A stretch of 64,000 nt of DNA from Siphonodentalium dalli (Eukaryota > Mollusca > Scaphopoda > Gadilida > Siphonodentaliidae): positions 81,370,705 through 81,434,704 of the forward strand of contig CP136067.1 in assembly GCA_032622095.1 (NCBI GenBank), given 5' to 3'. Both the position numbers and the translations under genes were made by a program. Under the pieces are notes generated by a model. It saw only the letters and a program-made list of their open reading frames with translations. It searched no databases and had not been told where the DNA came from. Within the stretch, counting starts at the first letter, position 1; the number at the start of each line of letters is the position of its first letter. This document shows positions 3,227 to 29,900 of this stretch, piece after piece.

Positions 3227-3540
3227 TTAATGCGCAATATGCATAACTCACTGAGCCATCATCGACTCAAAGCACTGCTAACATGACAACGATAGTGTGC
3301 ACAGTCCATAAATATGGCTGAAAAAATTATTGTGGTATATATTTTTATTCATAGCACCAAATTAAATTATGTTAAACCTTATGTTAACTTATCATATAAA
3401 AACATGACGTTAACGTTTGCGATTCGCCATACACCATTTGAACACCAAAAACGACACCGTATGTATATACATATATCTGAGACCCCAGGGCAAAAATACG
3501 GAGATTCCGTTTGTTGGTCGTGGTTTGCGGTGTGACTAAT

Positions 3541-3605
3541 TACCGCCCGGGGACCGCCCGAGACCGCCCGGGGACCGCCCGGGGACCGCCCGGGACCGCC
3601 CGGGC
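3541..3605. repeat. GC-rich (accgcccgggg)n tip repeat, left
   Basis: Several imperfect copies of a 10-15 base 'ggggaccgcccg' unit sit just inside the left terminus. A mirror-image block (gggcggtcccc)n is at 18238-18310. Confidence 0.8.
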
Positions 3606-5838
3606 GGCCCAACGAGCCCGTGGACACAATATCTCGACGGTATAACGTAGCGACATGCCACCTGAGGGCAACATAGAAAAATTTACTCGCTCGCTCGTCT
3701 CCGGCCGGTCATATTAACCCCACAAATGCCGATATTGGCTAAAAGAGCCTGGGTGATTACTGGTGTCTTCGTGTGTGTTCAGACAGATTATTTTGGTGAT
3801 TCTCGGTAGTGCAATAAGTGCAATACACCTGAGTGTTAATTCCATGTATTGAATCGTTGACGCGTCCACGGCCGATGTTATTAACCCCTAAAATTCCGGT
3901 AAAATAGTGTATAAACAAAAGAACCTTGGAACCGCCCGGGACCGCCCGGGCGGCCCCATGGGCCCGTGGACACTATATCTCGACGTTATAACATAGCGAC
4001 ATACCCCAAGAGGTCAACATACAAAATGTTACTCCCTCGCTCGACCCCGGCCGGCGTTATTAGCCCCTCAAAATCCGATAAAATGGTAAATAGACAAAAA
4101 GAACATTAGGACCGCCCGGGACCGCCCGGGTGGCCCCACGTGCCCGTGGACACAATATCTCGACGTTATAACGTAGCGATATACCCCATGAGGTCAACCT
4201 AGAAAACGTTGCTCGCTCGCTCGACCCCGGCCGGTGTTATTAACCCCTCAAAATCATACAAAATGGTATATAGACAAAAAGAACATTGGGACCGCCCGGG
4301 ACCGCCCGGTGGCCCCACGTGCCCGGGGACACAATATCTCGACGTTATAACGTAGCGACATACCCCATGAGGTCAACCTAGAAAATGTTACTCGCTCGCT
4401 CGACCCCGGCCGGTGTTATTAACCCCCCAAAATCCAACAAAATGGTTTATAAACAAAAATAACATTGGGACCGCCCGGGACCGCCCGGGAGGCCCCATGG
4501 GCCCGTGGACACTATATCTCGACGTTATAACGTAGCGACATACCTCACGAGGTCAACATACAAAATGGTACTCGCTCGCTCGACTCCGGCCGGTGTTATT
4601 AACCCCTCAACATCCGATAAAATGGTATATAAACAAAAATAACATTGGGACCGCCCGGGACCGCCCGGGAGGCCCCATGGGCTCGTGGACACTATATCTC
4701 GACGTTATAACGTAGCGACATACCCCATGAGGTCAACCTAGAAAATGGTACTCGCTCGCTCGACCCCGGCCGGTGTTATTAACCCCTCAAAATCCGATAA
4801 AATGGTAAATAGACACAAAGAACATTAGGACCGCCCGGGACCGCCCGGGTGGCCCCACGTGCCCGTGGACACAATATCTCGACATTATAACGTAGCGACA
4901 TAACCCACGAGGACAACCTATAAAATGTTACTCGCTCGCTCGACTTCGGCCGGTGTTATTAACCCCTCAAAATCCGATAAAATGGTATATAAACAAAAAG
5001 AACATTGGGACCGCCCGAAACCGCCCGGGAGGCCCCATGGGCCCGTGGACACTATATCTCGACGTTATAACGTAGCGACATACCCCATGAGGTCAACCTA
5101 GAAAATGTTACTCGCTCGCTCGACCCCGGCCGGTGTTATTAACCCCTCAAAATCCGATAAAATGGTATATAAACAATAAGAACATTGGGACCGCCCGGGA
5201 CCGCCCGGGAGGCCCCATGGGCCTGTGGACACTATATCTCGACGTTATAACGTAGCGACATACCCCACGAGGTCAACCTACAAAATGGTACTCGCTCGCT
5301 CGACTCCGGCCGGTGTTATTAACCCCTCAAAATCCGATAAAATGGTATATAAACAAAAAGAACATTGGGACCGCCCGGGACCGCCCGAGACCGCCCGGGA
5401 GGGCCCATGGGCCCGTGGACACTATATCTCGACGTTATAACGTAGCGACATACCCCACGAGGTCAACCTACAAAATGGTACTCGCTCGCTCGACTCCGGC
5501 CGGTGTTATTAACCCCTCAAAATCCGATAAAATGGTATATAAACAAAAAGAACATTGGGACCGCCCGGAACCGCCCGGGAGGCCCCATGGGCCCGTGGAC
5601 ACTATATCTCGACGTTATGACGTAGCGACATACCCCACGAGGTCAACCTACAAAATGGTACCCGCTCGCTCGACCCCGGCCGGTGTTATTAACCCCTCAA
5701 CATCCGATAAAATGGTATATAAACAAAAAGAACATTGGGACCGCCCGGGACCGCCCGGGAGGCCCCATGGGCCCGTGGACACTATATCTCGACATTATAA
5801 CGTAGCGACATACCCCACGATGTCAACCTAGAAAATCT
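3606..5838 (+). repeat. Left satellite array, ~180-bp unit
   Basis: About twelve units repeat at 180-bp spacing (for example the 'gtggacactatatctcgacg' box near 4506, 4686, 4866, 5046 and 5226). Each unit has a palindromic 'gaccgcccgggaccgcccgg' box, a 'ctcgctcgctcgac' box and a 'tattaacccctcaaaatcc' box. The terminal block at ~3720-3900 interrupts the first unit. Because 180 is divisible by three, the array keeps open frames of up to 172 codons. I treat these as artefacts. Confidence 0.9.
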
Positions 5839-6012
5839 TACTCGCTCACTCGACTCCGGTCGGTATTATTAACCCCTAAAAATCCAATATTGGATAAGAG
5901 GGCACGGACAGCTCGGTGTCTTCTTTTGATTTCAAACAGCATATTTTGATGATGCATGGTAGTGCAATACCACCTGATAGTGACTTCCAGATATTGACTC
6001 GCTGACGCGTCA
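5838..6012 (+). repeat. Diverged internal copy of the element terminus
   Basis: After the last left-arm unit, the sequence follows the terminal block in diverged form: cggt..attattaaccc, 'atattggataagagggc', 'ggtgtcttc', 'ggtagtgcaata', 'gctgacgcgtc'. It marks the inner edge of the left arm. Confidence 0.65.
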
Positions 6013-6431
6013 ACACAAAATACCGTATCACCATAAATATTCGGCTCTACATGATCGTAAATATCGCAATTTTCTTGAATGTTTTCAATAAAAATTAATA
6101 ACTTTACACCTATAATTTTTATATTTTGACACGAGCGGGTGTAATTGTGTTGATTTCGACAGCAACTGCTTGTCTGAAGAGAGCCGCGGCAGCTGTTTGA
6201 ATGTGTTGATATCAATTAGCAGTAAAACGGTATCGCAATTGTTATATTGTATACATTGTAAGACATATTGGCGGATTTAAACCGAAACTGTGTTTTCATA
6301 ACACTTGGGGAAGACGAACAGGTAATCTCATGACAACAGCGGAGATTTGCGATGAGGTTTCCGTGTTTTTATTGCAATCGAAAATGGTCGTAATCCCAAA
6401 ATCTTCTTGGTGCTAGACAATAACGATCGAG
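6013..6431. other. Core of the element, possible promoter region
   Basis: Unique AT-rich sequence between the left arm and the first PHD-OTU exon. It is where a promoter would be expected, but I recognise no defined core promoter motif. Confidence 0.3.
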
Positions 6432-6651
6432 ATGACGAAGAGAGTATTTGTGATATTGGAAACCCGTGTACTTAATTTGCTTACCGACCAATCACACGAT
6501 ATTACGTTATGGGGTAGATTATATATTATCGTGTGTGAATTAAAAATAAAATATAATTTTAAATATCTTAAAATCATGCGACCACGTATTCGATTCACGC
6601 TTCCATCCATGGTGCTGTATCCGTGTTCCGTCTGCTCTACTGAAGCTGAAG
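6432..6651 (+). CDS. PHD-OTU gene, exon 1 (start of PHD finger)
   Basis: The open frame from ATG 6432 (alternative in-frame ATG 6576) ends with PCSVCSTEAE and a clean GT donor at 6652 (gtgagt), phase 1. The C-x2-C pair is the first zinc ligand pair of a PHD finger completed by the next exon. The first ~48 codons are hydrophobic and AT-rich with no domain, so the later ATG at 6576 is equally plausible. Zinc-binding PHD fingers usually read histone tails. Here the domain is fused to an OTU domain inside a transposon-like element. Confidence 0.65.
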
Positions 6652-7129
6652 GTGAGTAAATATATTGTATATGACCATATTACATATTATATATTTTCTT
6701 TATTTGCTCCACATATGGAGAGTATGATGACCTCCATCACCGGGAATAATGTTTTCAGTCCTTGCCCAACAGGTCGTGGGTTGGGTTGCAATATGGGGAG
6801 GCACTTCGACCATGCAGGAAAATCATATTATACATGTCCAGTTGACATCAGATGTCTTAAAAGGGCACTAATTATTAATAAAATAAAAACATTAATTATA
6901 TAACCAAAATTGTTGAAATCTAATCGGTGAAAATTGAAACATGTGGGTAAAATTGGCCCATGGCGTGTCAAGAGAAAAGGGCACTAAGTATTGGTAAAAT
7001 AAAATAATTAAATTTATAACCAAAATTGTTGCAATCTGATCGGTGAGAATTGAAACATGTGGGTGAAATTAGCCCACAGCGTGTCAAGAGTTATAGATGC
7101 TGTTGACTTCAGACGACTTAAAGGGGCAA

Positions 7130-7353
7130 ATACGATCAATAAACGCTCTGTATTGGTCATAATATGATAATATTCCAGGCATGTATAAATTGGTGCGTTA
7201 GATTAGACTAGTCGAACCTTAAATAGTGACTTTTCAATTTCTATAAGTGGAGATAGACCTGCGGAACAAATATATGTGATCTGATTTGGTTTGTGGGGGG
7301 GGGGGGGTAACGTTTCCCCCCCGAACGCGGCCAGTGGCGAGCTAACCTGCTAG
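7130..7353 (+). mobile_element. 3' end of a Helitron-like element
   Basis: It ends 'gcggccagtggcgagctaacctg' (short hairpin GCC-agt-GGC), then CTAG at 7350-7353. The next element starts immediately. The start near 7130 is a guess, as the left boundary is not visible. Confidence 0.45.
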
Positions 7354-7759
7354 TCTATACTATATATTTTGAGACTTCGTATATATATGTGTCCTCGATA
7401 GAATTGAAAACGGCTGACTCGATTGAGCTCAAACTTCCCATCTAATGGTAAAATCGCTAGGGAATCGTCGTCGCGGCGTTTTGGAGAAGCTCTCATTGAA
7501 AAAAAAAAATTAAATTAAAAAACAAAATGCGTGTTGTGTAATTCTTATGTCTGTCGTTCCTAGGAAGGGGGAGATTTTCATCGGGTCAGTTTCTGCCCGA
7601 TGTACCGTAAATCATACCTATTATAGAACGGGTACCATCATTTCTCTTGATTAAAAAGGCAGAATTAACTCATTGAAAGAAAAAAATTTAAAAAAGGCAG
7701 AATTAAAAAAACAAGTCATGTGTCTGACCAACCACGCCAGTGGCTGGCTAACCTGCTAG
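7354..7759 (+). mobile_element. Helitron-like element, 406 bp
   Basis: It starts TCTATACTATATATTTTGAG directly after the preceding CTAG and ends with a GCCAG-tgg-CTGGC hairpin, 'taacctg', then CTAG at 7756-7759, followed by T. Internally it shares 'ggctgactcgattgagctca' and 'cgtcgcggcgttttggagaa' with the copy at 10064-10696. It has no coding capacity. Confidence 0.65.
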
Positions 7760-8592
7760 TTCAATATATAGAAGGCAGAATAGCCAATTATGTACATCAA
7801 CCATAACTTGACTAGAATCCCAATTGTGAATTTTTGTGAAATTTTATACCGAATTCTGTAAAAATCGAATTTTTTTAACATCATATTTTCAACCTCTGGC
7901 GTCCATTTTGGCAGCCATCTTGGAGAAGGAGTTTCAAATTTGAATTATAAAAGTGTCATTGTGTCTAACCCATGGAACAAACTACCGACGACTCGGATTC
8001 AATTAGAATTAGACTCGAGTTTAATTCATAATCCGTCTGTTGAAACAAACGTCGAATTTAATTCAAGACGAATCTAAATGATTTCTTAAAATGGCATAAA
8101 GCGTTTCTGAGGATTTTGGTCAAAACGGCTAAATTATGAAGTTATATATAAATTCTAGAACGTAACATTTAGTGAGAAAATGTGGCTTTTGATTTCTAAG
8201 CGACGAAAGTAATGTTAATTTTCTGAGGAGTGGAAATTATTGATTTTATATCGCTATTTCGTAGGGATTTGACACCTATTTTAGGTCGGACATGATTCTT
8301 TAGGTGGTATTTTGTTCTGAACTTGTCTGAGAGATATCAGGTCCAGTTTATTTTATACGAAAACGTTGTACCTTTTTAACAATTTAATAGCAAGTTGAGA
8401 ACAACGCTGTATAACACTATGTTGTGTCAGTATATGCCTATCTAAAACCACGTGGTAAAATAAACATGTATGGCGGGCAGGGACGTATAGCTAGAGGGTC
8501 TCCAAGGTGCATAATTCAATTAGAACCCCGCTTGGCTGTTCCTTCACACGCGTGGATCAGTAGACTTGTGATCATGCACTGAGTCGTCGGTT
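7760..8592. other. Core sequence with diverged MITE remnants
   Basis: Intron of the PHD-OTU gene. At 7970-8080, 'ccatggaacaaactaccgac' and 'gaaacaaacgtcgaattt' resemble the ends of the MITE at 8593-8943, indicating an older, decayed copy. Confidence 0.45.
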
Positions 8593-8943
8593 ACCCTTGG
8601 AACAAACGTCACACTACCGACGACTCGAATTAAATTATTATTATTTGAATTCGAGTCGACAAAAGTGCGACTTTTGTTTCAAATAAATGCGAGTAGACCC
8701 ACTACGGACGAAGCATGCGTGTGGTCAACACGAATTTAATTGCTGGTGCGTCTGAGATCCGTGTTTGAAACAAACGTCGCATCACCGTCGACTCGAATTT
8801 ATATCTGAGAAATGCAAACGAGCTGCATATAATGATATGCTAATGAGGGAATTCAATTGAAACTGGAAGGCATCAACGAGCATGACGTAATTTGGTGATA
8901 TTTGAATTCGAGTCGACGGAAGTGGGACGTTTGTTCCAAGGGT
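8593..8943. mobile_element. MITE with ACCCTTGGAACAAACGTC ends
   Basis: The left end ACCCTTGGAACAAACGTC is matched in inverted form at 8926-8943. The arms continue through 'gacgactcgaatt' and 'aattcgagtcgac'. Internal direct copies of 'aaacaaacgtcgca' (near 8769) suggest nested or duplicated termini. It lies in the first PHD-OTU intron. Confidence 0.65.
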
Positions 8944-9469
8944 GAGCTTCACGAAAATATATACAATTTACTAGAGTTCCCGCTATAATTGCCATCAAAC
9001 TAACTAAGTTCCTAGTCTAAAAAACGGCATCCGTCATGGCCGCCATCTTGTCTGGAGTCTACACGGCCACTTTTTTTCTTGTTGACATTGCTTTAAAGTT
9101 TAAGGACATGATAGAGAACAAAATTAGTGGGGTCAAGTTAGGTCCCAAGTGGGCACAAGGGTAACCCTATTAGCTCCCGGACTATATGCCAATATATACA
9201 TCTTTTTGTGGCCGGCCTCTTGATCGCGCAGTTCGACTTTTAAACTAATAAACCGGAAAAACCATAAAACATACATGGGACGATGGAATTTTATAATTTG
9301 GGCTACAGTATATATACACGCGGGCGTGCTAATTACGCAAACATGTAAAACCAGAATGTTATGTATATTTTTACATAACATTTATGAGACCAATTGGAGA
9401 AGAGAAACATTTGTATTTTCATCATATTACCCAATGCAGTTGATCATTCCACAACACTTTGATATGTGC

Positions 9470-9490
9470 AGCAGCGGGTCGCCCTGCTAG
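9470..9490 (+). mobile_element. Isolated Helitron-like 3' terminus
   Basis: 'gcgggtcgccctgCTAG' followed by T matches the CTAG terminus of neighbouring Helitron-like elements. The 5' boundary is not recognisable. Confidence 0.35.
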
Positions 9491-9589
9491 TTTCAAATAT
9501 TCAGACTGGAGTGTACATTCTGATGTCATTGTGTAATCTATATTTCGCGTTCTCATCAATTAATTAATCGTATTTATTTTCTTTGATAG

Positions 9590-9728
9590 GTACACAAGCA
9601 GTCCTTTGCAATTCGTGTTGCAAATGGGTCCACGACTCATGTGTCCCCATGAGTCCAACACAGTACGTCAAGTGGGGGAAAACGGACGTAGAATTTCTCT
9701 GCCCGAAGTGTGTTTCCTGGTCTGGCAG
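9590..9728 (+). CDS. PHD-OTU gene, exon 2 (rest of PHD finger)
   Basis: The acceptor 'tttgatag' precedes the exon and the donor is gtaagc at 9729. The phase-1 entry joins exon 1 exactly (split Gly). It encodes VLCNSCCKWVHDSC, then 27 residues, then CPKC. With exon 1 this gives C-x2-C, C-x2-C, H-x3-C, C-x2-C, a full PHD ligand set of eight zinc ligands. The exon leaves in phase 2, matching exon 3. Confidence 0.8.
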
Positions 9729-10063
9729 GTAAGCTTATGACATGAACTAAATATTGCCACTGTTCGAATAGAATTTGAAAAAAAAAGAGAATTGGGGCTT
9801 TTAAATCTCTGTGAAAGTTCCACAGCGGGGAGGGATGTTTCCCTGGGATTTCCAGGGATTTGGTGTACTTGGTCACACAACCACTGTGATAAGATTGCTA
9901 CCACCAGAACTGCCTCCTGGCAGTTTGCTCAGAAGTTGAAAAAAATGGTTGCTGATTTTGATTATTATGGCATAAACAGAGTGGTCAGAAAAACGAATTA
10001 TACACGCACAAAGAAATTGTATTTATTCTCCAGCTCGTTATGGTTTCTTAATTCTTTCTTAAT
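9729..10063. other. Second intron of the PHD-OTU gene, 5' part
   Basis: Intronic sequence between the PHD exon and the nested Helitron-like element. No conserved coding segment was recognised. Confidence 0.4.
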
Positions 10064-10696
10064 TCTCCTATATATTTTGAGAACTACGTATATATATACA
10101 TAGTCGCTATAGACTCCAAAACGGCTGGACAGATTGAGCTCAAACTTCCTATCTATGGGTAAAAATCAACGGGAATGATCGTCGCGGCGTTTTGGAGAAG
10201 CGCCGACCACCCGTTCTTCACTTCCAGTCACAAAAACGGCACTGCGTGGTTAATCGGGTTGATAGATAAGAGCGTTCCTATCCGCAGTGTAGTTGATAAA
10301 GAGCGTATGTGCGTAATGTGATTATTACGTCTGTGCACGGGCGTCAGCGTCGGTATCCAGACATGAGCGTGTTGTGTGATTCTTACGTACTTAGGGCTTC
10401 ATAGGAACGGGGATCGGGTCAGTTTTTCCGCCCTAGGTGATCTTCACCTTGAAACGGTAACCCAAAAATAATATATATGTGTGTGTGACCTACGGGAAGT
10501 GTCATGGGCGGTTTAAATTGTGACCCTGACCTGACCTTGACAATGATCAATTCAAGGTCAAATCGGGTAAAACTGGCGGATTTCGACGAATTGAAAAAAA
10601 CATTAATTAAAATAATTAATTAATTAAAAAAATGAAAAACGTTTGTTCGAACAAAGCCACGAGACGAACCACGCCAATGGCGGGCTAACCTGCTAG
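10064..10696 (+). mobile_element. Helitron-like element, 633 bp
   Basis: It starts TCTCCTATATATTTTGAG and ends with a CGCC-aat-GGCG hairpin, 'ggctaacctg', then CTAG at 10693-10696, followed by T. It shares its interior with the element at 7354-7759 and inserts extra sequence, including the 'gaccttgacaatgatcaatt' motif known from the other Helitron-like family here. Confidence 0.65.
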
Positions 10697-10942
10697 TAAG
10701 ATATAAAAGAGAAAATCGGTCTGTCCGTGTTTTTCTCCGCGATCCCCTGGGACGATTTAAACCACCAAATTTGGACTGGTGACTTCGGGTATACCCCGGC
10801 CCATGTTATAACGGGCTTTTTATTTTTGCAAGAGATGTAAATGTGTGCTTCGTGTGACCGTTTGTACAATGGATGCAGTCCGATATGGTCCAGTATATTA
10901 TAAATAAACGACCACTAATCACTACTTTCTTGAATTTTTCAG

Positions 10943-11469
10943 CCAGTACTCGTTCTCCTCAGCGTTAACCAGAATTGTTGACTCGACCAAAAGCCAATCA
11001 AACCAGCTGCAACTTCGACTCCGAACAGAGATAGCCCTTCTTGACCAGTATCACAACGACCTTCCCACTCGCATACCACCAAGTCCAAAAGACCACACTG
11101 TCGACACAGTTTCCAAGAGTGTGTTGCAGAAGTGTCAACCATCCGTTCTCAACGACTATGTTCCGTTAACAACATTCGGCGATGGCAACTGTTTATTCCG
11201 TGCAAGTTCCATCGCATTGTTCGGGACTGATTCTCACCACTTACAGCTCAGATATAGAACATGGCTCGAACTCGCAGAACATCCTGAACATTATGATGTC
11301 AGTCACCGTAGATACTCTTCACCGTTGCAGAATGATCAACGTATTGTTCTTGGCGAGTACAACCAGTATATCAAGGACACCCCCGTTCAGGACTCGTGGT
11401 GCGACATCAACCACATGCTTGCGTTAAGTGCTGTCCTTGGTATCACAATCCAAAGTTTCTTTCCACCAG
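10943..11469 (+). CDS. PHD-OTU gene, exon 3 (OTU-like protease domain)
   Basis: The acceptor 'tgaatttttcag' joins exon 2 with matching phase (2 to 1) and the donor is gttagt at 11470. It encodes 175 codons: a ~60-residue helical lead-in, then FGDGNCLFRA, the OTU catalytic loop with nucleophile Cys, then HHLQLRYRTWLELAEHPEHYD and SWCDINHMLALSAVLGITI. This order matches OTU/vertnin-like proteins. OTU enzymes cleave ubiquitin or related conjugates, and the Asp and Cys of the active site are present. The C-terminal catalytic His would lie downstream and is not seen. The element context suggests transposon cargo rather than a housekeeping gene. Confidence 0.82.
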
Positions 11470-11559
11470 GTTAGTCATTTAAATGTCACTTGAAGGGACG
11501 GACGACCTTCCGTGTAGGTTATAAACTAGAAATAATATTATCAACTTATGATAATTTCC

Positions 11560-12190
11560 TAATTTTGGACGTTTCGGCACCTGGGCGTTTTGGTACCCGA
11601 TTTGTCGGCACTTCGGATGTTTCGGCACATGTCAATTTCCGGACCAACGTAACACTCAGTGATTACAATAAATTATTTTGATTTTCGTTCTTTAGATCAA
11701 TACAATGTGGTAAAACATAAATACGGTAAACAAAACAGGATGTAACACAATGCTAAAGACGGCGGTTACCGTTCCAATAGCACCACCAAACACACTAATA
11801 TACCTGTTAGGTCTTCTACGTTCCGAAGTGCCACAATAAGCGATTTAGAATTGTACTCCAAGCCTTTACTGCGCGCATAGAACGTTCTTTGTTACATTTA
11901 AAATTCCTGATAATTAAAACAATAAAGAGCGTTTATCTGACTTATGTGCAAAATGTAGAAATTTCAAGATACACAGTACTGCTCCAAGCTTGTTAAAGGT
12001 ATAGATAGTCCACATATTAGTACAGCAAGCATCTATTTTTTAAAAATATCAAGTGCCGAAACGTCTTCGACAAAGTCCGAAAATGTCCAGATGCTTGGGC
12101 CGAAACAGCCAAATACCGAAATCTCAGGTGCCGAAACGTCCCAAAAAATGGGTGCCGAATCGTCCAGGTGCCACAACGTCCCGCACCCGT
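11560..12190. repeat. Inverted repeat with GTTTCGGCAC boxes
   Basis: The left side carries repeated 'gacgtttcggcac' boxes (11570-11630). The right side (12050-12190) carries the reverse complement 'gtgccgaaacgtc' in four or more variants. Subterminal repeated boxes in opposite orientation around ~450 bp of unrelated sequence suggest a MITE or other non-autonomous DNA transposon. Confidence 0.55.
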
Positions 12191-12508
12191 AATGAATATA
12201 GTATAGCATAATAATGATATGAATGCGATATTATTCACAAAACACGTTTTGTGTCCGAGAAAATACAGATCGACTGTTGTTTGTTTATTAGATGCGTCAC
12301 GATATTGCGTTATTTCCATATTTAGATTCGCGTGCTATACGTCGGTTGTAAAACTCCTAATTTGGTTGCTTGCAACTTACAATACGATTCATCGTAATAT
12401 TGCTCACTAACAGGGTTACCAGGCGTTGCTCATGTTAAAGTGATGTGAAACCCTCTGTATGTTGTGGATATTTGGTGGGAATAGAGATTACTCTTGCTCT
12501 TGTTACAG

Positions 12509-12567
12509 GCATTCCACCAATAAGTATTTATTTATTTTCTGCCTATACGTTAGACGTTATGGCATAA
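12509..12567 (+). CDS. Possible terminal exon of the PHD-OTU gene
   Basis: A good acceptor (pyrimidine tract, then 'gttacag') precedes an exon that takes the phase-1 junction of exon 3. It adds GIPPISIYLFSAYTLDVMA before TAA at 12565-12567. The resulting protein would be about 314 residues and stop before an OTU catalytic His. Only the splice signal and phase support it, so the real 3' end may be different or decayed. Confidence 0.3.
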
Positions 12568-13484
12568 CGCATGAACATCATATTAAACACATTGTTTCGC
12601 ACAAGATGACAACCGGGCTTTACATATATAGAGATGTATCAATCAATCTAGTTGGTTAGACTAAAATTTTAGGATCCTGGCTATCATGTCCTTATGAAGA
12701 TACAGATGTTTTCTGCGATAAGATCACTGGCATGTAAACATTATACGCTGTAAACAGCCGTCAATTTGAGTTACATCTTTACAATATGGGAAATCTAATT
12801 ATTTTGTTCAAAGGTGCTGAAAATGTGCCTTTCAACCTGTGCAATGCCGGGTAACGTTGATAGTAATCAATACTTTCCAGTTACGCGTAGATTCATTATC
12901 TATAGTTGTGGATTGATATTACTCGTTGGTTGTAATTCTCCTTGTAATCCGTTTATTTGAAAGACAAACACCGGCCGGGGTCGAGCGAGCGAGTAACATT
13001 TTCTAGGTTGACCTCATGGGGTATGTCGCTACGTTATAACGTCGAGATATTGTGTCCACGGGCACGTGGGGCCACCGGGCGGTCCCGGGCGGTCCTAATG
13101 TTCTTTTTGTCTATTTACCATTTTATCGGTTTTTGAGGGGTTAATAACGCCGGCCGGGGTCGAGCGAGGGAGTAACATTTTGTAGGTTGACCTCGTGGGG
13201 TATGTCGCTATGTTATAACGTCGAGATATAGTGTCCACGGGCCCATGGTGCCTCCCGGGCGGTTTCGGGCGGTCCCAATGTTCTTTTTGTTTATATACCA
13301 TTTTATCGGATTTTGAGGGGTTAATAACACCGGCCGGAGTCGAGCGAGCGAGTAGCATTTTGTAGGTTGACCTCGTGGGGTATGTCGCTATGTTATAACG
13401 TCGAGATATAGTGTCCACGGGCCCATGGGGCCGCCTGGGCGGTCCCGGGCGGTTCCAAGGTTCTTTTGTTTATACACTATTTTA

Positions 13485-13760
13485 CCGGAATTTGAGGGGT
13501 TAATAACATCGGCCGTGGACGCGTCAACGAGTCAATACATGGAATTAACACTCAGGTGTATTGCACTTATTGCACTACCAAGAATCACCAAAATAATCTG
13601 TCTGAACACACACGAAGACACCAGTAATCACCCAGGCTCTTTTAGCCAACATCGGCATTTGTGGGGTTAATATGACCGGCCGGAGACGAGCGAGCGAGTA
13701 AATTTTTCTATGTTGCCCTCAGGTGGCATGTCGCGACGTTATACCGTCGAGATATTGTGT
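13485..13760 (-). repeat. Embedded copy of the element terminus
   Basis: The unique terminal block (aacatcggccgtggacgcgt, 'caggtgtattgcacttattg', 'aatatgaccggccggagacg') occurs here, 4,459 bp before the true right terminus, but continues into satellite instead of ending. It suggests an old terminus swallowed by arm growth or unequal exchange. Confidence 0.8.
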
Positions 13761-14389
13761 TCACGGGCACGTGGGGCCACCCGGGCGGTCCCGGGCGGTC
13801 CCAATGTTCTTTTTGTCTATATACCATTTTATCGGATTTTGAGGGGTTAATAACGCCGGCCCGAGTCGAGCGAGCGAGTACAATTTTGTAGGTTGACCTC
13901 GTGGGGTATGTCGCTACGTTATAACGTCGCGATATAGTGTCCATGGGCCCATGGGGCCTCCCGGGCGGTCCCGGGCGGTCCCAATGTTCTTTTTGTTTAT
14001 ATACCATTTTGTCGGATTTTGAGGGGTTAATATCACCGGCCGGAGTCGAGCGAGCGAGTAACATTTTCTAGGTTGACCTCATGGGGTATGTCGCTACGTT
14101 ATAACGTCGAGATATTGTGTCCACGGGCACGTGGGGCCACCCGGGCGGTTCCGGGCGGTCCCAATGTTCTTTTTGTCTATATACCATTTTGTCGGATTTT
14201 GAGGGGTTAATAACACCGGCCGGGGTCGAGCGAGCGAGTATCATTTTCTAGGTGGGGTATGTCGCTATGTTATAACGTCGAGATATTGTGTCCACGGGCA
14301 CGTGGGGCCACCCGGGCGGTCCCGGGCGGTCCCAATGTTCTTTTTGTCTATATACCATTTTGTCGGATTTTGAGGGGTTAATAACACCG

Positions 14390-17300
14390 GCCGGGGTCGA
14401 GCGAGCGAGTATCATTTTCTAGGTGGGGTATGTCGCTATGTTATAACGTCGAGATATTGTGTCCACGGGCACGTGGGGCCACCCGGGCGGTCCCGGGCGG
14501 TCCCAATGTTCTTTTTGTCTATATACCATTTTGTCGGATTTTGAGGGGTGAATAACACCGGCCGGGGTCGAGCGAGCGAGTAACATTTTCTAGGTTGACC
14601 TCATGGGGTATGTCGCTACGTTATAACGTCGATATATTGTGTCCACGGGCACGTGGTGCCACCCGGGCGGTCCCGGGCGGTCCTAATGTTCTTTTTGTCT
14701 ATTTACCATTTTATCGGATTTTGAGGGGTTAATAACGCCGGCCGGGGTCGAGCGAGGGAGTAACATTTTGTAGGTTGACCTCGTGGGGTATGTCGCTATG
14801 TTATAACGTCGGGATATAGTGTCCACGGGCCCATGGTGCCTCCCGGGCGGTTTCGGGCGGTCCCAATGTTCTTTTTGTTTATATACCATTTTATCGGATT
14901 TTGAGGGGTTAATAACACCGACCGGAGTCGAGCGAGCGAGTAACATTTTGTAGGTTGACCTCGTGGGGTATGTCGCTACGTTATAACGTGGAGATATTGT
15001 GTCCACGGGCACGTGGGGCCACCCGGGCGGTCCCGGGCGGTCCCAATGTTATTTTTGTTTATAAACTATTTTGTTGGATTTTGAGGGGTTAATAACACCG
15101 GCCGGGGTCGAGCGAGCGAGTAACATTTTCTAGGTTGACCTCGTGGGGTATGTCGCTACGTTATAACGTGGAGATATTGTGTCCACGGGCACGTGGGGCC
15201 ACCCGGGCGGTCCCGGGCGGTCCCAATGTTATTTTTGTTTATAAACTATTTTGTTGGATTTTGAGGGGTTAATAACACCGGCCGGGGTCGAGCGAGCGAG
15301 CAACATTTTCTAGGTTGACCTCATGGGGTATGTCGCTACGATATAACGTCGAGATATTGTGTCCACGGGCACGTGGAGCCACCCGGGCGGTCCCGGGCGG
15401 TCCCAATGTTCTTTTTGTCTATATACCATTTTGTCGGATTTTGAGGGGTTAATAACACCGGCCGGAGTCGAGCGAGCAAGCAACATTTTGTAGGTTGACC
15501 TCGTGGGGTATGTCGCTATGTTATAACGTCGAGATATAGTGTCCACGGGCCCATGGTGCCTCCCGGGCGGTTTCGGGCGGTCCCAATGTTCTTTTTGTTT
15601 ATATACCATTTTATCGGATTTTGAGGGGTTAATAACACCGGCCGGAGTCGAGCGAGCAAGTAACATTTTGTAGGTTGACCTCGTGGGATATGTCGCTACG
15701 TTATAACGTCGAGATATTGTGTCCACGGGCACGTGGGGCCACCCGGGCGGTCCCGGGCGGTCTCAATGTTATTTTTGTTTATAAACCATTTTGTTGGATT
15801 TTGAGGGGTTAATAACACCGGCCGGGGTCGAACGAGCGAGTAACATTTTCTAGGTTGACCTCATGGGGTATGTCGCTACGTTATAACGTCGAGATATTGT
15901 GTCCACGGGCACGTGGGGCCACCCGGGCGGTCCCGGGCGGTCCCAATGTTCTTTTTGTCTATATACCATTTTGTCGGATTTTGAGGGGTTAATAACGCCG
16001 GCCGGGGTCGAGCGAGGGAGTAACATTTTGTAGGTTTACCTCGTGGGGTATGTCGCTATGTTATAACGTCGAGATATAGTGTCCACGGGCACGTGGGGCC
16101 ACCCGGGCGGTCCCGGGCGGTCCCAATGTTCTTTTTGTCTATATACCATTTTGTCGGATTTTGAGGGGTTAATAACACCGGCCGGGGTCGAGCGAGCGAG
16201 TTTCATTTTCTAGGTGGGGTATGTCGCTATGTTATAACGTCGAGATATTGTGTCCACGGGCACGTGGGGCCACCCGGGCGGTCCCGGGCGGTCCCAATGT
16301 TCTTTTTGTCTATATACCATTTTGTCGGATTTTGAGGGGTGAATAACACCGGCCGGGGTCGAGCGAGCGAGTAACATTTTCTAGGTTGACCTCATGGGGT
16401 ATGTCGCTACGTTATAACGTCGATATATTGTGTCCACGGGCACGTGGTGCCACCCGGGCGGTCCCGGGCGGTCCTAATGTTCTTTTTGTCTATTTACCAT
16501 TTTATCGGATTTTGAGGGGTTAATAACGCCGGCCGGGGTCGAGCGAGGGAGTAACATTTTGTAGGTTGACCTCGTGGGGTATGTCGCTATGTTATAACGT
16601 CGGGATATAGTGTCCACGGGCCCATGGTGCCTCCCGGGCGGTTTCGGGCGGTCCCAATGTTCTTTTTGTTTATATACCATTTTATCGGATTTTGAGGGGT
16701 TAATAACACCGGCCGGAGTCGAGCGAGCGAGTAACATTTTGTAGGTTGACCTCGTGGGGTATGTCGCTACGTTATAACGTGGAGATATTGTGTCCACGGG
16801 CACGTGGGGCCACCCGGGCGGTCCCGGGCGGTCCCAATGTTATTTTTGTTTATAAACTATTTTGTTGGATTTTGAGGGGTTAATAACACCGGCCGGGGTC
16901 GAGCGAGCGAGTAACATTTTCTAGGTTGATCTCGTGGGGTATGTCGCTACGTTATAACGTGGAGATATTGTGTCCACGGGCACGTGGGGCCACCCGGGCG
17001 ATCCCGGGCGGTCCCAATGTTATTTTTGTTTATAAACTATTTTGTTGGATTTTGAGGGGTTAATAACACCGGCCGGGGTCGAGCGAGCGAGCAACATTTT
17101 CTAGGTTGACCTCATGGGGTATGTCGCTACGATATAACGTCGAGATATTGTGTCCACGGGCACGTGGAGCCACCCGGGCGGTCCCGGGCGGTCCCAATGT
17201 TCTTTTTGTCTATATACCATTTTGTCGGATTTTGAGGGGTTAATAACACCGGCCGGAGTCGAGCGAGCAAGCAACATTTTGTAGGTTGACCTCGTGGGGT

Positions 17301-17880
17301 ATGTCGCTATGTTATAACGTCGAGATATAGTGTCCACGGGCCCATGGTGCCTCCCGGGCGGTTTCGGGCGGTCCCAATGTTCTTTTTGTTTATATACCAT
17401 TTTATCGGATTTTGAGGGGTTAATAACACCGGCCGGAGTCGAGCGAGCAAGTAACATTTTGTAGGTTGACCTCGTGGGATATGTCGCTACGTTATAACGT
17501 CGAGATATTGTGTCCACGGGCACGTGGGGCCACCCGGGCGGTCCCGGGCGGTCTCAATGTTATTTTTGTTTATAAACCATTTTGTTGGATTTTGAGGGGT
17601 TAATAACACCGGCCGGGGTCGAACGAGCGAGTAACATTTTCTAGGTTGACCTCATGGGGTATGTCGCTACGTTATAACGTCGAGATATTGTGTCCACGGG
17701 CACGTGGGGCCACCCGGGCGGTCCCGGGCGGTCCCAATGTTCTTTTTGTCTATATACCATTTTGTCGGATTTTGAGGGGTTAATAACGCCGGCCGGGGTC
17801 GAGCGAGGGAGTAACATTTTGTAGGTTTACCTCGTGGGGTATGTCGCTATGTTATAACGTCGAGATATAGTGTCCACGGG
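14390..17880 (-). repeat. Higher-order duplication, 1,791-bp period
   Basis: Variant-bearing units recur 1,791 bp apart: the 'gaggggtgaataac' variant at 14543 and 16334, and open frames 14683-15012 versus 16474-16803 and 15310-15732 versus 17101-17523, nearly identical. Ten satellite units were duplicated together recently. Confidence 0.85.
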
Positions 17881-17914
17881 CCCATGGGGCCGCCCGGGCG
17901 GTCCCGGGCGGTTC

Positions 17915-18324
17915 CAATGTTCTTTTGTTTATACACTATTTTACCGGAATTTGAGGGGTTAATAACATCGGCCGTGGACGCGTCAACGAGTCAATACATG
18001 GAATTAACACTCAGGTGTATTGCACTTATTGCACTACCGAGAATCACCAAAATAATCTGTCTGAACACACACGAAGACACCAGTAATCACCCAGGCTATT
18101 TTAGCCAATATCGGCATTTGTGGGGTTAATATGACCGGCCGGAGACGAGCGAGCGAGTAAATTTTTCTATGTTGCCCTCAGGTGGCATGTCGCTACGTTA
18201 TACCGTCGAGATATTGTGTCCACGGGCTCGTTGGGCCGCCCGGGCGGTCCCGGGCGGTCTCGGGCGGTCCCCGGGCGGTCCCCGGGCGGTCCCGGGCGGT
18301 CCCCGGGCGGTAATTAGTCACACC
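17915..18324 (-). repeat. Right terminal inverted repeat
   Basis: Reverse complement of 3529-3930 with only scattered substitutions and small length changes in the GC-rich tip repeat. It ends 'ggtaattagtcacacc' at 18324. Confidence 0.88.
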
Positions 18325-18452
18325 CGTGGTTTGTATCATTAGGCTGCCATTTTCATTTTCAGTATATACGGTTTATTCTGATTTAGGGATATTTCAGTCA
18401 CATGTATATTTAAGAAATAAATAAATGGAGCATCTGTGTGTATACGCATATT

Positions 18453-20977: not shown

Positions 20978-23900
20978 CTGAAACTAGAAATAGTTCAGAG
21001 AATTACAGACCTTGTTTTAAGCAACAGACTTCGACTGCAGGAGGTTATTGTAATATTTGCACATGCAGTCCAGGTGACACCAACTACACGTTCTGGAACG
21101 AATAGAGAGAAACACATGACACTGATTGATTTAATACTCAAATAGCACAACAAAGTACAAACATGTGTAAACACGAACATATCTACAAGGAAAGCTATAT
21201 ACACATTTAGTACTGCGGTGCAGAAGCTGGTTCATTATTTCAAAATCGCTAGTCTAAGTAAGCCATCATCGTCGCCATTGCCCTTGTCGTCGTCGTCATC
21301 ATCGTCGTCATCATCATCATACTCATCATCAGCATTGTTAATCATCAGTAGCATCGTCAGCATCATCGACATCATGTTAGTCGTCGTCGTCATCGTTGTA
21401 GTCGTCGCAATCTTCGTCGTCGTCATCTCTCGTCATCACCTCATCCTCATAACCATCGGTATCGTCATTGTCATCATCACCACCACCACCATCATCATCA
21501 AAAACCTATTACGTCAGTCTGTCAATCACAAATTCCACGCATCTATCTTCTGATTGGCTAACGATCAGACATGCGCCAATTTGTAATTGGTTGACGCTGA
21601 CGTAATATTTTAATGTAATGAGACAGCCTGCTATTGGTTCCAGTATATCGAACGCACAACTGTTTTAGATACATGTAGTCTAGGTTCACAGAGGCACATT
21701 GTAGGTTGTTGAAGGAATTAACTCTAAAAACAATCCAAATTATAGGATCACGTGACCGACATAATTAACTTTTTCACACATTACAATTAATGCCAGAGCT
21801 ATCAAACAGCGGAGAATCCCATTCAACTTAAAAAAAACTATTACGTTAGTGGCAGTCAACCACAATTTTGACGCATCTATCTTCTGATTGGCTATCGATC
21901 ATATATGACGCAATTTGTAATTGTTTGACACTGACGTACTCTTCTCAAATGCAATGGGACTCTCAGCCGTTTGTTCCAGTATATAGAACGCATAACTGTT
22001 TAAAAAGCCTGGGTTCACGCAGGTACATTGTAGGTTGTTGTAGGAATCGACTCCGAAAACCTTCCAATTTAGAGGGTCGCGTATCCAACACAATAAATAT
22101 GTTCATACATTACCCAATAATAACAGAGATATTGATGTATAACGGTTAATTCGCCCATGACTAAATCAGTCACGTGACATGTAAAGCTACGTGACTACAC
22201 TCGCATGTCATCCGAAAAAATGCCACCATTAACAGAGTTCTATGATTATTTTAAACATAAGAATGAGGCTGTCCCAGTCGTGAATGTAGTACAAAATCAG
22301 AACTCACAATCACTAGATATATCCCTAGACCAATCACCACTCAACAGTGACTTCACGTTACAAGAAATAGAAAATGTGGTTAAAAGCCTAAAAAGCGGTA
22401 AGTCACCAGGTGTGCATGGTATCAGAAACGAGTATATAAAGACAACGTTCGATCAATTGGCCCCAGTTTATTTTCGACTCTTTAACTTGATACTCAGGAC
22501 CGGGGCGATTCCAGAAGAATGGGGTACCGGTATTATTCACCCAATTTTCAAATCAAAGGACCCAAAACAACCCGATAATTACAGACCCATAACGCTAGTT
22601 AGTTGTATTTCAAAGCTATTCTCGGCTATCTTGAGCAAACGAATCTACTCATTCCTCCAAATAAATGACCTTTTATCGGAAAATCAAGCCGGCTTTCGAG
22701 AAAACTACTCCACTACTGATCACATTTTTACACTTCACTGCTTAATAGATATGGTTAAGAAGACATCAAAACAAAGCCTATACTGCGCATTTATAGACCT
22801 TTCGAAGGCGTTCGATAGTGTTTGGAGGATAGGTCTTTGGACAAAGCTTTATGATATCGGAATAAACGGCCGTATCCTCAGAGTGATCATGAATATGTAC
22901 AATGGAATAAAGTCATGTGTCTCCGTTGGAAACCAGTTTTCACCCCCATTCCCATGTGATACTGGAGTAAGACAAGGAGAGAACCTCTCTCCTATCCTGT
23001 TCTCGATCTACCTCAATGATCTTGAAATATTTCTGTCCCGTACGAAACAGAAAGGAATTTCCCTATCCCGCCTAAATGAAACTACTTTTTTTAATTTGAA
23101 ATTATTTTGCCTGTTATATGCAGATGATACTGTTCTTTTTGCAGAAAGTCCAACTGAAATGCAAAATATATTAGATGCATATTCATCTTATTGCCATGAA
23201 TGGAAACTGACTGTTAACAACAGCAAGAGTAATGTAGTCATCTTTGGGAAAGATAAAAAATTTAAACCGTTTTTTCGATTAGACGGACAACAGATAATTG
23301 TGGCGGACGAATATAAGTATTTGGGCGTAACATTTACGAATAATGGTTTGTTCAACATAGAAAAGAAGCGACGATGTGAAATAGCAAAAAAGGCTATGTT
23401 CTCAATCATATGTAAGGCTAGGAAACTAAAACTGCCACTAACATGCATCATTGATCTTTATGAGAAAACTATTATACCTATATTGACTTATGGTTGTGAG
23501 ATTTGGGGTGTAAGCAATAATATAATTATTCAGCGCACAGAGCTCTGGTTCCTTAAATTCGTTTTTAAGTTAAAAAAATCAACTCCCACATCAATGATAT
23601 ATGGTGAACTAGGTTTGCTCCCAATAACTGAAAAAATAAAACACAGAGTGTTGAACTACTGGTCACGAATAATAAATGGCAATAAGTCGAAATTATCATA
23701 TGTACTATATGCTACTATTCATAATATGCTCGATAGGCATAAATCAGGTTTTACTTGGATCCGGTATGTAAGAAACTTATTAAATGGACTAGGTATGTCA
23801 GACGTATGGCTATCCCACAACACAATTAGCGAGAAATGGTTCAACAATGCAACACGACTTAAAATTCGAGATCAATATTTACATAATTGGCGGTCCTCGT

Positions 23901-26900
23901 TGCAATCATCTGATAAATATAATTTTTATAAAACTATTAAAGATGAGTTCCTGACAGAAGAATACCTATCGATATTATCAACTAAAGAAGCACTGACACT
24001 TATGAAGTTCAGAACGCGAAACCATCACCTACCCATAGAAACTACGAGCTGGGCAAATATGTCTAACAACAAATCCTGCACCTTTTGTAGCAACGGAATC
24101 GGTGACGAGTATCATGTGATGTTGATCTGCGAGAAATTCGATGAAAATCGTGCTAAACTAATCCCCAAATACTACTATAAATACCCAAACAATTTAAAAT
24201 TACGCCAATTGATGGAAACTACTAAAATACAGGTAATGCGCAATGTCTATCATCTGATCAAGGTAATAATGTCTTCTACCTGAACGCTCTTTATCATCAT
24301 TTCACCCCCCCCCCCCACATTGTCACAACGAAGTACGCCCCACTAATCTCAGTGGGAGGACCATCATATACCTCCTACTGCGCCATGATGGTCTTTTTAT
24401 TGTCTACTTAGACACCCGTAATGCACACGACAGTGTGCAAATTGGCGAGTCGGACTATTTTCCATCGATGACCCCCCCACCCGCCACACAGGGCGTTCGC
24501 GTCCCTGTGTGGACTCACCAAATGTCGTGGATATTATGCTCCATCACGCTTACTATATTTATCACGAATATTTTGAAGGATTAAAGCCTGGTGTATATAA
24601 TAGTTACTGTAAAATGTACCGTTGATTTATTATAATGAACACTATACTCACGGTGGTGCAACTTGAAGCATTCCAGCGTTTTCACCCTAACCTCCCGACT
24701 TTCGTGAACACAGCCACAACATACCACTGACCCATATTTCAGACGGTGATTCCCCGAACAACTCGAATGCAATCACGTGACATTGATATTTTATTGTGGG
24801 ATCATCGAATGCGTGAAATAGTACCTGACGCGTGCCACTCAGTTGACCTGAGCACGATTTTGACAGGATTCGCTTGATCCTCACTGAGCACGCAGGATTT
24901 ACTTGATGTGGACATGCACTTGATGCGATGGGGTCTATTAGCAATGGTGTCTCTGTCTGTTTATTTGAAGCCCGGCTTTATTCTAAACATTATTATTCGA
25001 ATACATCCACAACTTCGACCTCAAGTTATATGCTGATTAAAACATACAATGCAGATTTTGTCCATACGTTTTTTTCTTCTTTTTTTTTCCAAATTCAAAG
25101 TTATATCTGTGGCTCATGTGCCCCATCGTCTCAAGTCAACATTTATGTATATGCATGTCGCTATGACAGTATTCCTGTGTAAATGACGCGAGTATCAAAG
25201 TATCAAATAAATAGATAGTCTTATATATAGTATCGGGCACATCCACCCTGTTTTGGGTGGATGTGCCTTCGATGTATGCATTAACATTAATATTACATAT
25301 ACTATAAAATATATTTATGTACCTGTTAAATGTGCTTTTGTCATATATTTGTATTTGAATCTTGTATATCTCATATATCATGATTATTGATTTATTGAGA
25401 TTAAAGAATTGAACTTTCAAAAGAAATATATCGCACTGTATTTGTGTATGTACCGTATTTACTATATTGAGATTGTATTATGGAATAACATTGATAAAAC
25501 GTTACGTCTTTCTCTTGATCTGAAACACTGATAATTATGAATCAAACTATTATGTTTCGATGAACTAAAGAAGCTAGAAAATAATCCATATGTTTATTAT
25601 TGAGGTAGATTTCGTTCTTTACCTGTACCTGTGAGCAATTGGTTGTGTGTATGGTGTGGCTGCAGCATGGATGGGCCACTGTAGTCTTGGTAATGAGGAC
25701 CCACTCAGACAGTGGCATACACACAGCCATTTGCAATATGAATTTTATATATAATGTATCTAATACATTAGTCTCACCTTTTGTCCTCTTATAAATTCAT
25801 TTTGATATAACCATCCGTCCTTTTCTCACATTGCAATGTATACCTTGCACCTGGATGTCGACCTGTCGCACATTAACTGCCAAGCTAAACCACCACATAT
25901 ATAGACACCGTGGGGTGGTTGTATATGGCGTTCGGTTTCGAGTATTACTGGTACATATGTATGATCGACTTGTATAACTCATCCTGACTTACGTAGTCTA
26001 GTAAATAGACCCCCATGCAACAATATTATTATAATTTGTATGTAGATGTATTTATATAAACAATATATAATTGTGTTCAAGCATATTCTTGTTGTGCACT
26101 GTAACACAAACTTAAACTGTAAACTATGTGTGTATGTGGTGGGTTAGTTATTAAATAAATTCAGATGCCTATTAAACGACGGACGACCCGTAATTACAAA
26201 ACAACTATAATTTCGCATTTCTTGTGGCGAGTTTCTTAGATGTTTTAGCAAAACACAAGCAACAAAGGGTTGAATTGAAATTAAGTGATCATATTGATTC
26301 GAACTTATTGTGTTTGGATGTACTAACACAAAGACTCTTTCGCTACGTGTGCGTTCAGATGACTCAAATGCTATGAATGTGATTGGAAAAATAATCACTC
26401 ATAATATGCATACGATTTAGAATAAGTTTGTTGCTAGTCACGCATCAACATCGAACTCACTGATACTGAATACATAATACATTAAATCTTAAAAATGCCC
26501 CATTGCAATTTGACATCATAAACAACTAATATTGGTAATTTTTCTATAATAATTCTAGTCGTTTGCCCATTATTGTTATATTTTGATGGTCAGCAATCGA
26601 ATTTCAAAAAAAGTTTTAACATGTTTTCGATTTTTGCCAGACTAGTAAATTCCATCGTCTCTGATAAAGAACACCCATGCCTTCGTTTCCCAAACAGAGA
26701 AATGTAGTAAAGTAAAAGAGTATCCTCAATTATGAGCTCTTTGTTTTACTGATGTATGATGTAGTGCATTTCCGCTACCACTGTGCCACACGAGTGGAGG
26801 TGAATGCAAGTACCTTTCATTTTTATTTTGCACGATAAGCGGAATCTGACTAATTTGGTGTCAAATCGGACCGGGAATATTCAATTAGTGGGCACTTATC

Positions 26901-29900
26901 AAACTGTATTATTACCAAAGCGTATTAGGGCCACCCGAAACAACACCGCACCCCCAAATATAAAAATACAGGTACACAACTCGTTATAACGACTTGAAAG
27001 TCGTTATACCGACTTCTAACAACGCGTTATAAGGACTTCATCTTCTTCTTCCGCATAAGGCAAATCTCTTATAAGAGTGTTTAAAGCCTGGCACATGCAT
27101 GATAAAACAGTTAAAATGTGTATACACACTATACAGTTAAAAACAGCCCCGGAGTTACTTATTCTTTTTCTTGTCAGTGGTGAATGCTGGGTTGGGTGGC
27201 TGGCCGGCAGCTTGTCCAACTCCACTCTGAAACTCTTTGTGTCAAATTCTGGTGTGCATGTTACCTGGGAGAGTTTGTTCCACTGTCTGGTGGTGCGTGG
27301 AAAAAAACGACTGGTGGTATACGTCGATCCCAGTGGTGCTTTGATATAATTTGTGTTTGCCCCGTGTTCTTTCATCGCCTTGCATGCCTGATGTACGAGT
27401 CTGGATTGATGTCGACCACTCTATCCTTAATTTCCCTGAGCATCATGATGCGGTCTTTCGCTCTTCTGTGATGGAGAGATTCCCAATGCAGGTCCCCTAG
27501 CATGTCTGTCATTACTCCTAGTGTTCTGGACCACTAGTTGCTGGTGGTGAATCGGGCGGCTCTGCGTTGGACTCGTTCTAGTTGAGTAACCAATCTCTCT
27601 GTGTGTGGGTCCCAAAACAGTGGAGGCATACTCCAGGATAGGTCTGACAATGGCTGAATATGCTGCTGCCTTAACTTCTTTCCGACAGCCTCGCATATTT
27701 CTTCTAAGGAATCCGAGCGACCGCTGTGCCTTGGATGTTATGAGGTCAGCGTGAGGTCCCCATCGCAGTTGGTTATTGATCACTACTCCCAGATACTTGC
27801 TGTTTGTTACTGTTTCCAGGGTGTGACCATGCAATTTGTAGTCTGTTAACATGGGACGTTTTTTTGTTGGTAATGTGGAAGATGTTGCACTTTTGAGGGT
27901 GGAATGACATCTGCCATGTGGATTCCCAATTATCTAGGCATTGTAGGTCTCTTTGCAATTTTCTAGTATCTGATTTAGATGACACCTTTTGGAAGAGAAG
28001 ACAGTCGTCGGCGAACAGTTTTGTTGGAGAAGAAGTGCAGTGTGGAAGATCGTTAATGAAAACTAGGAAGAGTAGGGGTCCTAGCACAGTACCCTGGGGC
28101 ACGCCGTTGTAGATTGCTGTTGTAGAGGTGTGGCATTCGAGTATCACTTGTTGGGTGCGATGTTTTAGGAAGTCTTTGATTCAATAGAGGGTTACCTTGT
28201 CCATGCCGTAGTATGACAGCTTGTGGAGCAGTCTTTTTGGTGTGGCACTTTGTCGAAAGCTTTGGCAAAATTCAGGAGGATGACGTCAGTCTGGTGGCCT
28301 TCTGCCATATTGTTTGCGATGTCGTTGATTGTGACTAAAAGCTGCGTTTCACAAGACCGTCTGGGCCTGAAGCCATGTTGTTCATCTGCTATGATCTTGT
28401 TCTTATCTAGGTGGGCCATGGCTTGGCTGTGTATTATGTGATCCATGATCTTGCAGGGAATTGATGTGAGTGACACAGGTCGGTAGTTAGATGCTTGGTG
28501 TATGTCTCCTTTCTCAAACATCGGTGAGACTAGTACCTTTCTCCAGTCATCAGGGATGGTGCCGGTGTCTAAAGAGAATTGGTAGACGTGCTTCAGTTCC
28601 GAAGCAAACGACTGGAGGAATTTGGCCGGTATTAAGTCAGGGCATGTTGCTTTGTGCGGGTTTGTGTTCTTCAGCTGCAGTCGGAGTACCCCATGTTCAG
28701 TGATGTTTATTTTTCCCATCTGGTTGTGTGGGCGTGCTCCTTTATATGATATGGAAGAAACATCCTCTTGAGTGAAGACAGACTGGAACTGGGCATTCAG
28801 GATTTCTGCTTTACTCTCCTTGTCATTGTGAAGTAACCCATCAGATCCAATCAAGGGTGCCTCCCACTATAATCTTGATTCTTGCTTTTTAGATAGGACC
28901 AACATTTCTTAGGTGAGGAATGGAGTTGAGGGCTGATAACATCTTTTATGTATGAATTGTGCGCTTTCCTCGTTTCCGTTTGTGTATCCCTTTTCAATTT
29001 TGAGTATCTTTCCCAATCTGTTGTGTTATTGGTCTTTCTCGCTCGTTGGTAGGCTCTGCGTTTCCTTTTAGATAGTGTGTTGATGCTGCTATTCGCCCAG
29101 GGGTTTGTGAACTTGGGGCTGGAGAGCTTAGATGGAATGTGTTTGTCCATGATGTTAAGACAAGTGGTCTTAAAGTCCATCCACATGGTATTGATGTTAG
29201 TATATCTCTCTCGGCAGATTGTCTCACGAAATATCCTCAAGTCTAGGCTGATTAGAATACTCTCTGCTCTATTCCATAGTAGGATCTTCCTTCTTGGTGT
29301 TTTCTCTCTTTTCGCTGTCAGAAGGTTGTGAATTAGGATGATATCATGATTTGATTTCCCTATTGGTGGGAGAGGTTTGCAGGTGTCGATGAGGGATGGA
29401 TGGGAGGTGACGAAAAGATCCAAGATATTTTCCCCTCTTGTCCGAAAGTCGATTATCTGCTCCAGATCAAGGTCCTTTAGGACTGATGTTAGTTTGTCAC
29501 TTTGTTTAGGAGGGCCGTCGTCTGGTTGTGAAGATGTTCCTTTCCAGTCGATGTCAGGAAGATTGAAGTCCCCCCCAACGAGAAATATTGCATTCTTTCT
29601 CATATTTCTGAGTTTGACAAGATCCTCGCATGCTTTCTCTAAGTAATTATCATCGGCACTTGGTGGTCTATAAAATGCTGTGACAATAGTAGATTTTCCT
29701 CCACTTAGTTCTATCTGTACGCTGATTAGTTCTGTGTCTTTTCCAGACAGTACCTCGGTGCAAGTCAGATCACTTTTTGTCGCAATCAAGGCACCACCAT
29801 GAGAATCTCCTGGGCTGTCTCTTCTTCGGACTGTGAAGGTTGGTGGTAGAATTTCCGAAGACATGATGTCGTCATTCAGCCAGGTCTCTGTCCCCAAGAT

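Follow-up and report, generated by a model that had tools for sequence, protein, structure and literature searches.

The 64,000-nucleotide stretch of Siphonodentalium dalli contig CP136067.1 analysed here (positions 81,370,705 to 81,434,704, forward strand; hereafter the window) contains a transposon of 14,798 bp in total (3528-18325), which very probably belongs to a foldback-type family of DNA transposons within the Mutator (MULE/IS256) superfamily and represents a copy that is internally deleted and non-autonomous. The 16-mer GGTGTGACTAATTACC was found once per strand in the window, as the left terminal tip (3529-3544, + strand), which recurs in other copies, and as the inverted right terminal tip (18309-18324, − strand), and CGTGGTTTG was restricted to 3519 and 18325. 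The element is flanked on either side by the 8-bp sequence GTGGTTTG (3520-3527 and 18326-18333), and on the + strand its outermost base is a C at either end, giving a C-end on the left and a G-end on the right. An earlier note on this DNA had placed tips and flanking repeats at exactly these positions, and each occurs once per side in the 64 kb. The note had argued for one foldback-like element rather than two satellites; searching the host genome gave 21 further elements with both tips, which bears out this view.

The family in the host genome

The left end of the window element served as query against the host genome (2.23 Gb, nine contigs), and 40 of the 1,485 candidate matches were scored; as the query was a C-end, these represent the part of the family closest to it. 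All 40, including the window itself, spanned the whole query (one ended 1 base early) with 98-100% identity, and they were distributed across all nine contigs. The element set used below (n=22) consists of the window copy, 20 loci from the left-end search and L033+L034, which was found via its transposase. Both tips were present in all 20 loci, for 17 of these within 9.9 kb and for L009, L027 and L011 after reading further out, and in L033+L034, where the left tip has one changed base. The elements ranged from 3.5 to 18.8 kb, and target site duplications of exactly 8 bp were found in 18/22, with one mismatch in 2/22 (L014 and L027) and no recognisable duplication in the other 2/22. In 13/22 elements, a count which includes the possibly artefactual L018 described below, the two arrays abut without a core, and by eye the junctions of these array-only elements are all different: ten of the 13 have 0 to 8 shared bases, L019 and L025 have overlaps of 15 and 33, respectively, and L026 has a 19-bp spacer. 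Together, these copies show the features of foldback elements: target duplications, a core that is variable or absent, and inverted ends that are long and built of tandem repeats. Searches of viral contigs with the tip and the satellite, and of prokaryote genomes with the tip, were without match.

Element ends and length of the target duplication

On the + strand, the outermost base between target duplication and tip is either C on both sides or G on both sides in 21/22 elements, with one end being CGGTGTGAC and the other GGGTGTGAC. When the 23 C-ends and 21 G-ends were compared, only two features differed in frequency by more than half, namely this outer base and one length difference within the GC-rich stretch. 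The single exception is the element at L018:1-4190, in which the outer bases are C and G and both ends are C-ends; its 140-bp flanks are perfect inverted copies, and it represents either a duplication in inverted orientation or an artefact of assembly from a folded read.

The joined flanks of L015 align without interruption with L017:9419-9699, an unoccupied relative of the L015 site. Because this site holds a single ATTTTTAG without a C in between, the outer base has to be counted as part of the element and the target duplication is 8 bp long. The ninth matching base in the window is therefore the element's own outermost C rather than part of a duplication, and the 9-10 bp previously proposed have to be reduced to 8, the extra C on each side being part of the transposon. 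The L015 transposon sits inside one copy of a palindromic family resembling miniature inverted-repeat transposable elements, which was the source of the unoccupied site and is also found at 54339-54723, 58152-58542 and 59670-59832 of the window and at several loci.

Satellite arms

Counted from the outside, the arms consist of the tip, GC-rich ACCGCCCGGG repeats and a 346-bp terminal unit, followed by an array of ~180-bp units. The GC-rich ACCGCCCGGG(G) repeats lie directly inside the tips at 3542-3619 (+) and 18224-18311 (−), the right side being longer by one 10-bp unit, and by eye they resemble an extension of a motif of the 180-bp units. The terminal units, each a 180-bp unit plus ~166 bp, are located at 3620-3965 (+) and 17878-18223 (−). 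The near-identity of the inverted termini of the ~180-bp satellite arrays, as given in the earlier note, was confirmed, with 96.6% identity between the arms over 682 bp counted from the tip and 342/346 identical positions in the terminal unit. The left array (3966-5774, +) has ten ~180-bp units and ends inwards in a diverged copy of the terminal unit (5775-6014, +), while the right array (12967-17877, −) contains in its interior a further 346-bp terminal unit (13419-13764, −; 339/346 to both ends) and a tandem duplication of 1,791 bp or ten units (14250-17833, −; outer limit approximate), the copies of which differ at 11 positions in a 1,873-bp comparison that includes ragged ends. Counted in 180-bp units, the two opposed arrays have 11.2 copies at 3869-5889 and 28.1 copies at 12967-17974. 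The consensus of the 180-bp unit contains the perfect palindrome ACGTTATAACGT, and the most conserved 20-base stretch among 35 units is GTTATTAACCCCTCAAAATC. Arms of such ~180-bp units were present in all 22 elements, with lengths of 1.46-7.87 kb.

The near-identical arms had been taken as a sign of recent insertion. Mean divergence was 1.15% between the two arms of one element (22 pairs) and 1.20% between ends of different elements (924 pairs), and because these values are about equal, arm identity does not date the insertion and was rejected as a clock.

Core and transposase gene

A core was retained in 9/22 elements, with pieces ranging from 87 bp to 12.6 kb, and all of these cores are pieces, at 96-100% identity, of the 12,645-bp core of the 18.8-kb copy L009+L029, which served as reference (stretches of at least 80 bp above 93% were counted). 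The length kept was 6,735 bp in the window, 7,440 bp in L027, 4,723 bp in L033 (3' end only), 3,321 bp in L013, 3,058 bp in L011, 1,384 bp in L010 and 669 bp in L023, with L015 keeping only the last 89 bp. Relative to the C-end, the window shares one core orientation with L010, L013, L023 and L015, and the opposite orientation is found in L009, L011, L027 and L033; these orientation isomers probably arise by exchange between the inverted arms. The window core (6015-12966, +) comprises the 5' part of the shared core plus Helitron-like and other nested repeats. Three exact GCTAACCTGCTAGT sites (7341-7354, 7747-7760 and 10684-10697; expectation from shuffling 0.17 with up to two mismatches) are what we take to be 3' ends of Helitrons nested in the core. 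The core of L013 is ~530 bp larger than that of the window, the extra part being 94% similar to a repeat with 122-bp units at 44234-44759 of the window and representing a nested insertion.

The reference copy contains four exons which together encode 1,294 residues without a stop and are spliced in frame, combining part of a PHD finger, an OTU protease domain, a linker and a Mutator/IS256-type DDE transposase. The window copy has the first two of these: exon A (9590-9728, +), flanked by AG and GT splice signals, encodes the second half of the PHD finger (PF00628, E 4e-6), and exon B (10943-11469, +) the first part of the OTU domain with its DGNC motif (PF02338, E 2.4e-6), together 221 residues in frame. 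The spliced gene that the earlier note described the element as carrying is not cargo: its PHD exon and first OTU exon come from the 5' side of the transposase gene of the family itself. The OTU profile match ends at position 84 of 128, and the putative catalytic OTU-His exon was assigned from a stretch with 29% identity to P0001, a protein from the set of six OTU-like relatives found for exon B, in which both sequences have NHFVPLI. At 12967-12968, inside the intron before the OTU-His exon, a deletion junction with a shared AA joins the core to the right array, and the exons for the OTU C-terminus, linker and MULE transposase have been lost there. Without these exons, which include the catalytic ones, the window copy could move only in trans, and if it was mobilised by this transposase it did so in trans.

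The transposase exon was found between the tips in L009+L029 and L033+L034, and is open in both. In a comparison of 20 transposase sequences, all from the host genome, D81, D157, C178/H181 and E276 were invariant, with a CxxH between the second D and the E, and at E<=0.01 the MULE profile matched 16/20 and Transposase_mut 10/20. The best fold match of this exon was ISCth4, with a shared DDE arrangement and 9-15% identity over the aligned part; a sequence search of the PDB with the transposase gave no match. The host genome also contains many diverged MULE transposases (33-80% identity), some with open frames of ~900-1,280 aa. A Pfam search of 20 open reading frames in and beside the window core gave no transposase, only sub-threshold matches to DUF7791 and Clr2_transil. 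Further sub-threshold matches, to TFIIA in the Ser/Thr/Pro-rich linker and to Birna_RdRp_palm, RadC and fn1 in array frames, were discarded as due to composition and chance, respectively.

Classification and alternative explanations

Assignment to Mutator is based on the MULE-type DDE transposase, present in sister copies rather than in the window copy, and on the 8-bp target duplications; duplications in the Mutator superfamily are 8-11 bp long. Of the Phantom/Mutator affinity suggested previously, the Mutator part is supported by the MULE/IS256 transposase between the tips of two elements. A Phantom placement gains no support, since Pfam gave no match to FLYWCH in the scanned exons, which did not include the first exon(s). 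Several observations weigh against the classification proposed here. A target duplication could not be recognised in L018, whose flanks are inverted, or in L028, which adjoins a run of poly-C, and the locus sequences examined contained no unoccupied relative of the insertion site in the window. The complete four-exon frame was seen in one copy only, and neither the first exon(s) nor the first half of the PHD finger that they would encode could be found. The transposase exon scores just below the Pfam cut-offs for MULE (26.3 vs 27.6) and below that for Transposase_mut (17.4 vs 21), and its NCBIfam IS256 score of 26.2 is far below the equivalog cut-off of 150. Finally, its AlphaFold model is middling (predicted local distance difference test 72.6, predicted template modelling score 0.67) and its superposition on ISCth4 loose (root mean square deviation 5.5-6.7 A).

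Seen in the window alone, the gene resembles a truncated host gene without transposase, and the element could be a composite, in which foldback arms captured a piece of host DNA carrying a PHD-OTU gene of the host, in the style of a Pack-MULE or Ising's TE. We consider this very unlikely, as pieces of the same core are found in eight other copies and as the PHD and OTU exons are in frame with the transposase exon in L009+L029, unlike a Pack-MULE, in which the core is a fragment of a host gene. Capture of PHD-OTU by a distant ancestor of the family is compatible with the evidence and may have taken place. There is a similarly small chance that another superfamily with 8-bp duplications (hAT, P or Merlin) mobilises the elements, with the MULE gene as a passenger; between the tips, no transposase other than a MULE/IS256-like one was found, its exon is open in both elements that keep it, and duplications of 8-10 bp are found in two families that their authors assigned to Mutator, Tetris of Drosophila virilis (8-10 bp; available text of PMC4079207) and the root-knot nematode Mutator/Foldback family Tm1 (mostly 9 bp, range 8-10; available text of PMC3169594). 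That two separate inverted satellite arrays flank ordinary genomic DNA, which would fit the Helitron-like ends and other common repeats in the core, can practically be dismissed, since the matching 9-mer would occur by chance with a probability of ~1e-4 (245/2,000,000 trials with two random window positions and a 0-1 base offset on each side), and the 21 other loci with tips, the exact 8-bp duplications in 18/22 and the recurrence of this core in eight further copies refute it.

For the Mutator foldback family favoured here, the DDE transposase of complete copies would recognise the tips and probably also the repeated 180-bp units, excise the element and join it to a target staggered by 8 bp, giving the 8-bp duplications. 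Cores have been lost repeatedly, probably when ends were joined or repair broke off following excision, which left array-only elements, and unequal exchange may expand and contract the satellite arms, as in the 1,791-bp duplication, while exchange between inverted arms would invert the core with the outermost bases keeping their position. A more speculative scenario, which we hold possible without expecting it, is a Mutator lineage with a transposase to which a PHD finger and a deubiquitinase-like OTU domain have been added, possibly enabling it to recognise chromatin marks and to remove ubiquitin at its targets or from itself; the 180-bp units might serve both as transposase-binding arrays and as a genome-wide satellite seed, the ends might have fixed roles, given that their outermost base, unlike the rest of the arms, is never homogenised, and arm exchange might flip the core between its two isomers.

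Comparison with known elements

By anatomy, and as judged from descriptions, the family is closest to Tetris and Tm1, while its enzyme groups with MULE/IS256. The bacterial transposases of IS256 and ISCth4 are the NCBIfam and top fold matches of the transposase exon, respectively, and belong to insertion sequences without arrays, PHD or OTU. Galileo, a Drosophila element of the P superfamily, has 7-bp duplications and a P-type THAP transposase, unlike the MULE-type enzyme found here; no THAP domain was reported in the exons scanned (again without the first exon(s)), and the transposase exon is of MULE/IS256 rather than P type. The Drosophila FB/FB-NOF elements and the composite Ising TE are likened to the present family by structure, and differ from it in core and repeat unit. 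Their shared features are the foldback structure and inverted ends of tandem repeats (for Ising TE see also the available text of PMC6431247), and Galileo has long, internally repetitive inverted ends in which the internal repeats hold extra transposase binding sites (PMC4079207, available text).

Within the same available text of PMC4079207, the inverted ends of Tetris are long and consist of an outer flanking domain plus a ~220-bp tandem array of variable size, the expansion of which led to a satellite, but these ends reach 1,735 bp, compared to arms of up to 7.9 kb here, and its authors did not find a complete transposase-encoding element, whereas two elements with the transposase exon are present in this family. 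Tm1, as far as the available part of PMC3169594 describes it, shares the composite tandem-repeat ends, a MULE transposase in some copies and short non-inverted motifs at the extreme ends, but has ~14 bp repeats and a Phantom-like transposase with FLYWCH instead of 180-bp units, a one-base asymmetry, PHD and OTU. The literature searched for it yielded no description of a PHD-OTU-MULE architecture: in the available part of a review of giant transposons the sole mention of OTU concerns Helentrons (PMC6431247), and the available parts of two bivalve papers (PMC10294476, PMC5139131) contain nothing resembling the present family. An unpublished or library-only relative may exist.

Other features of the window

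Outside the element, a 701 aa LINE (long interspersed nuclear element)-type reverse transcriptase frame (PF00078) was found at 22178-24283, and an endonuclease frame (PF14529, PF03372) followed by frames that by eye are reverse-transcriptase-like at 27016-30692 on the minus strand. There is a C-type lectin exon (PF00059) at 35265-35774, and a second frame, lectin-like by eye and without Pfam match, at 61111-61611. The window also contains a minisatellite at 37207-38585 (29-bp unit, 47.6 copies, 91% matches) and a 545-bp tandem repeat with 100% identity at 51262-52349, which has either been duplicated very recently or been misassembled.

Significance of the family

As a rule, what is known of foldback elements comes from broken copies. 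The present family is unusual in its arms of 1.5-7.9 kb of 180-bp satellite, its strict terminal C/G asymmetry, the orientation isomers of its core and its PHD-OTU-MULE architecture, and one genome, with ~1% divergence between ends, holds an open PHD-OTU-MULE copy, graded deletions and array-only copies. The path from a coding transposon to a pure satellite hairpin can therefore be read directly from the copies in a single genome, and a MULE-type element with satellite arms of up to 7.9 kb, high-scoring ends of which are found on all nine contigs, provides a route for the genome-wide scattering of a satellite.

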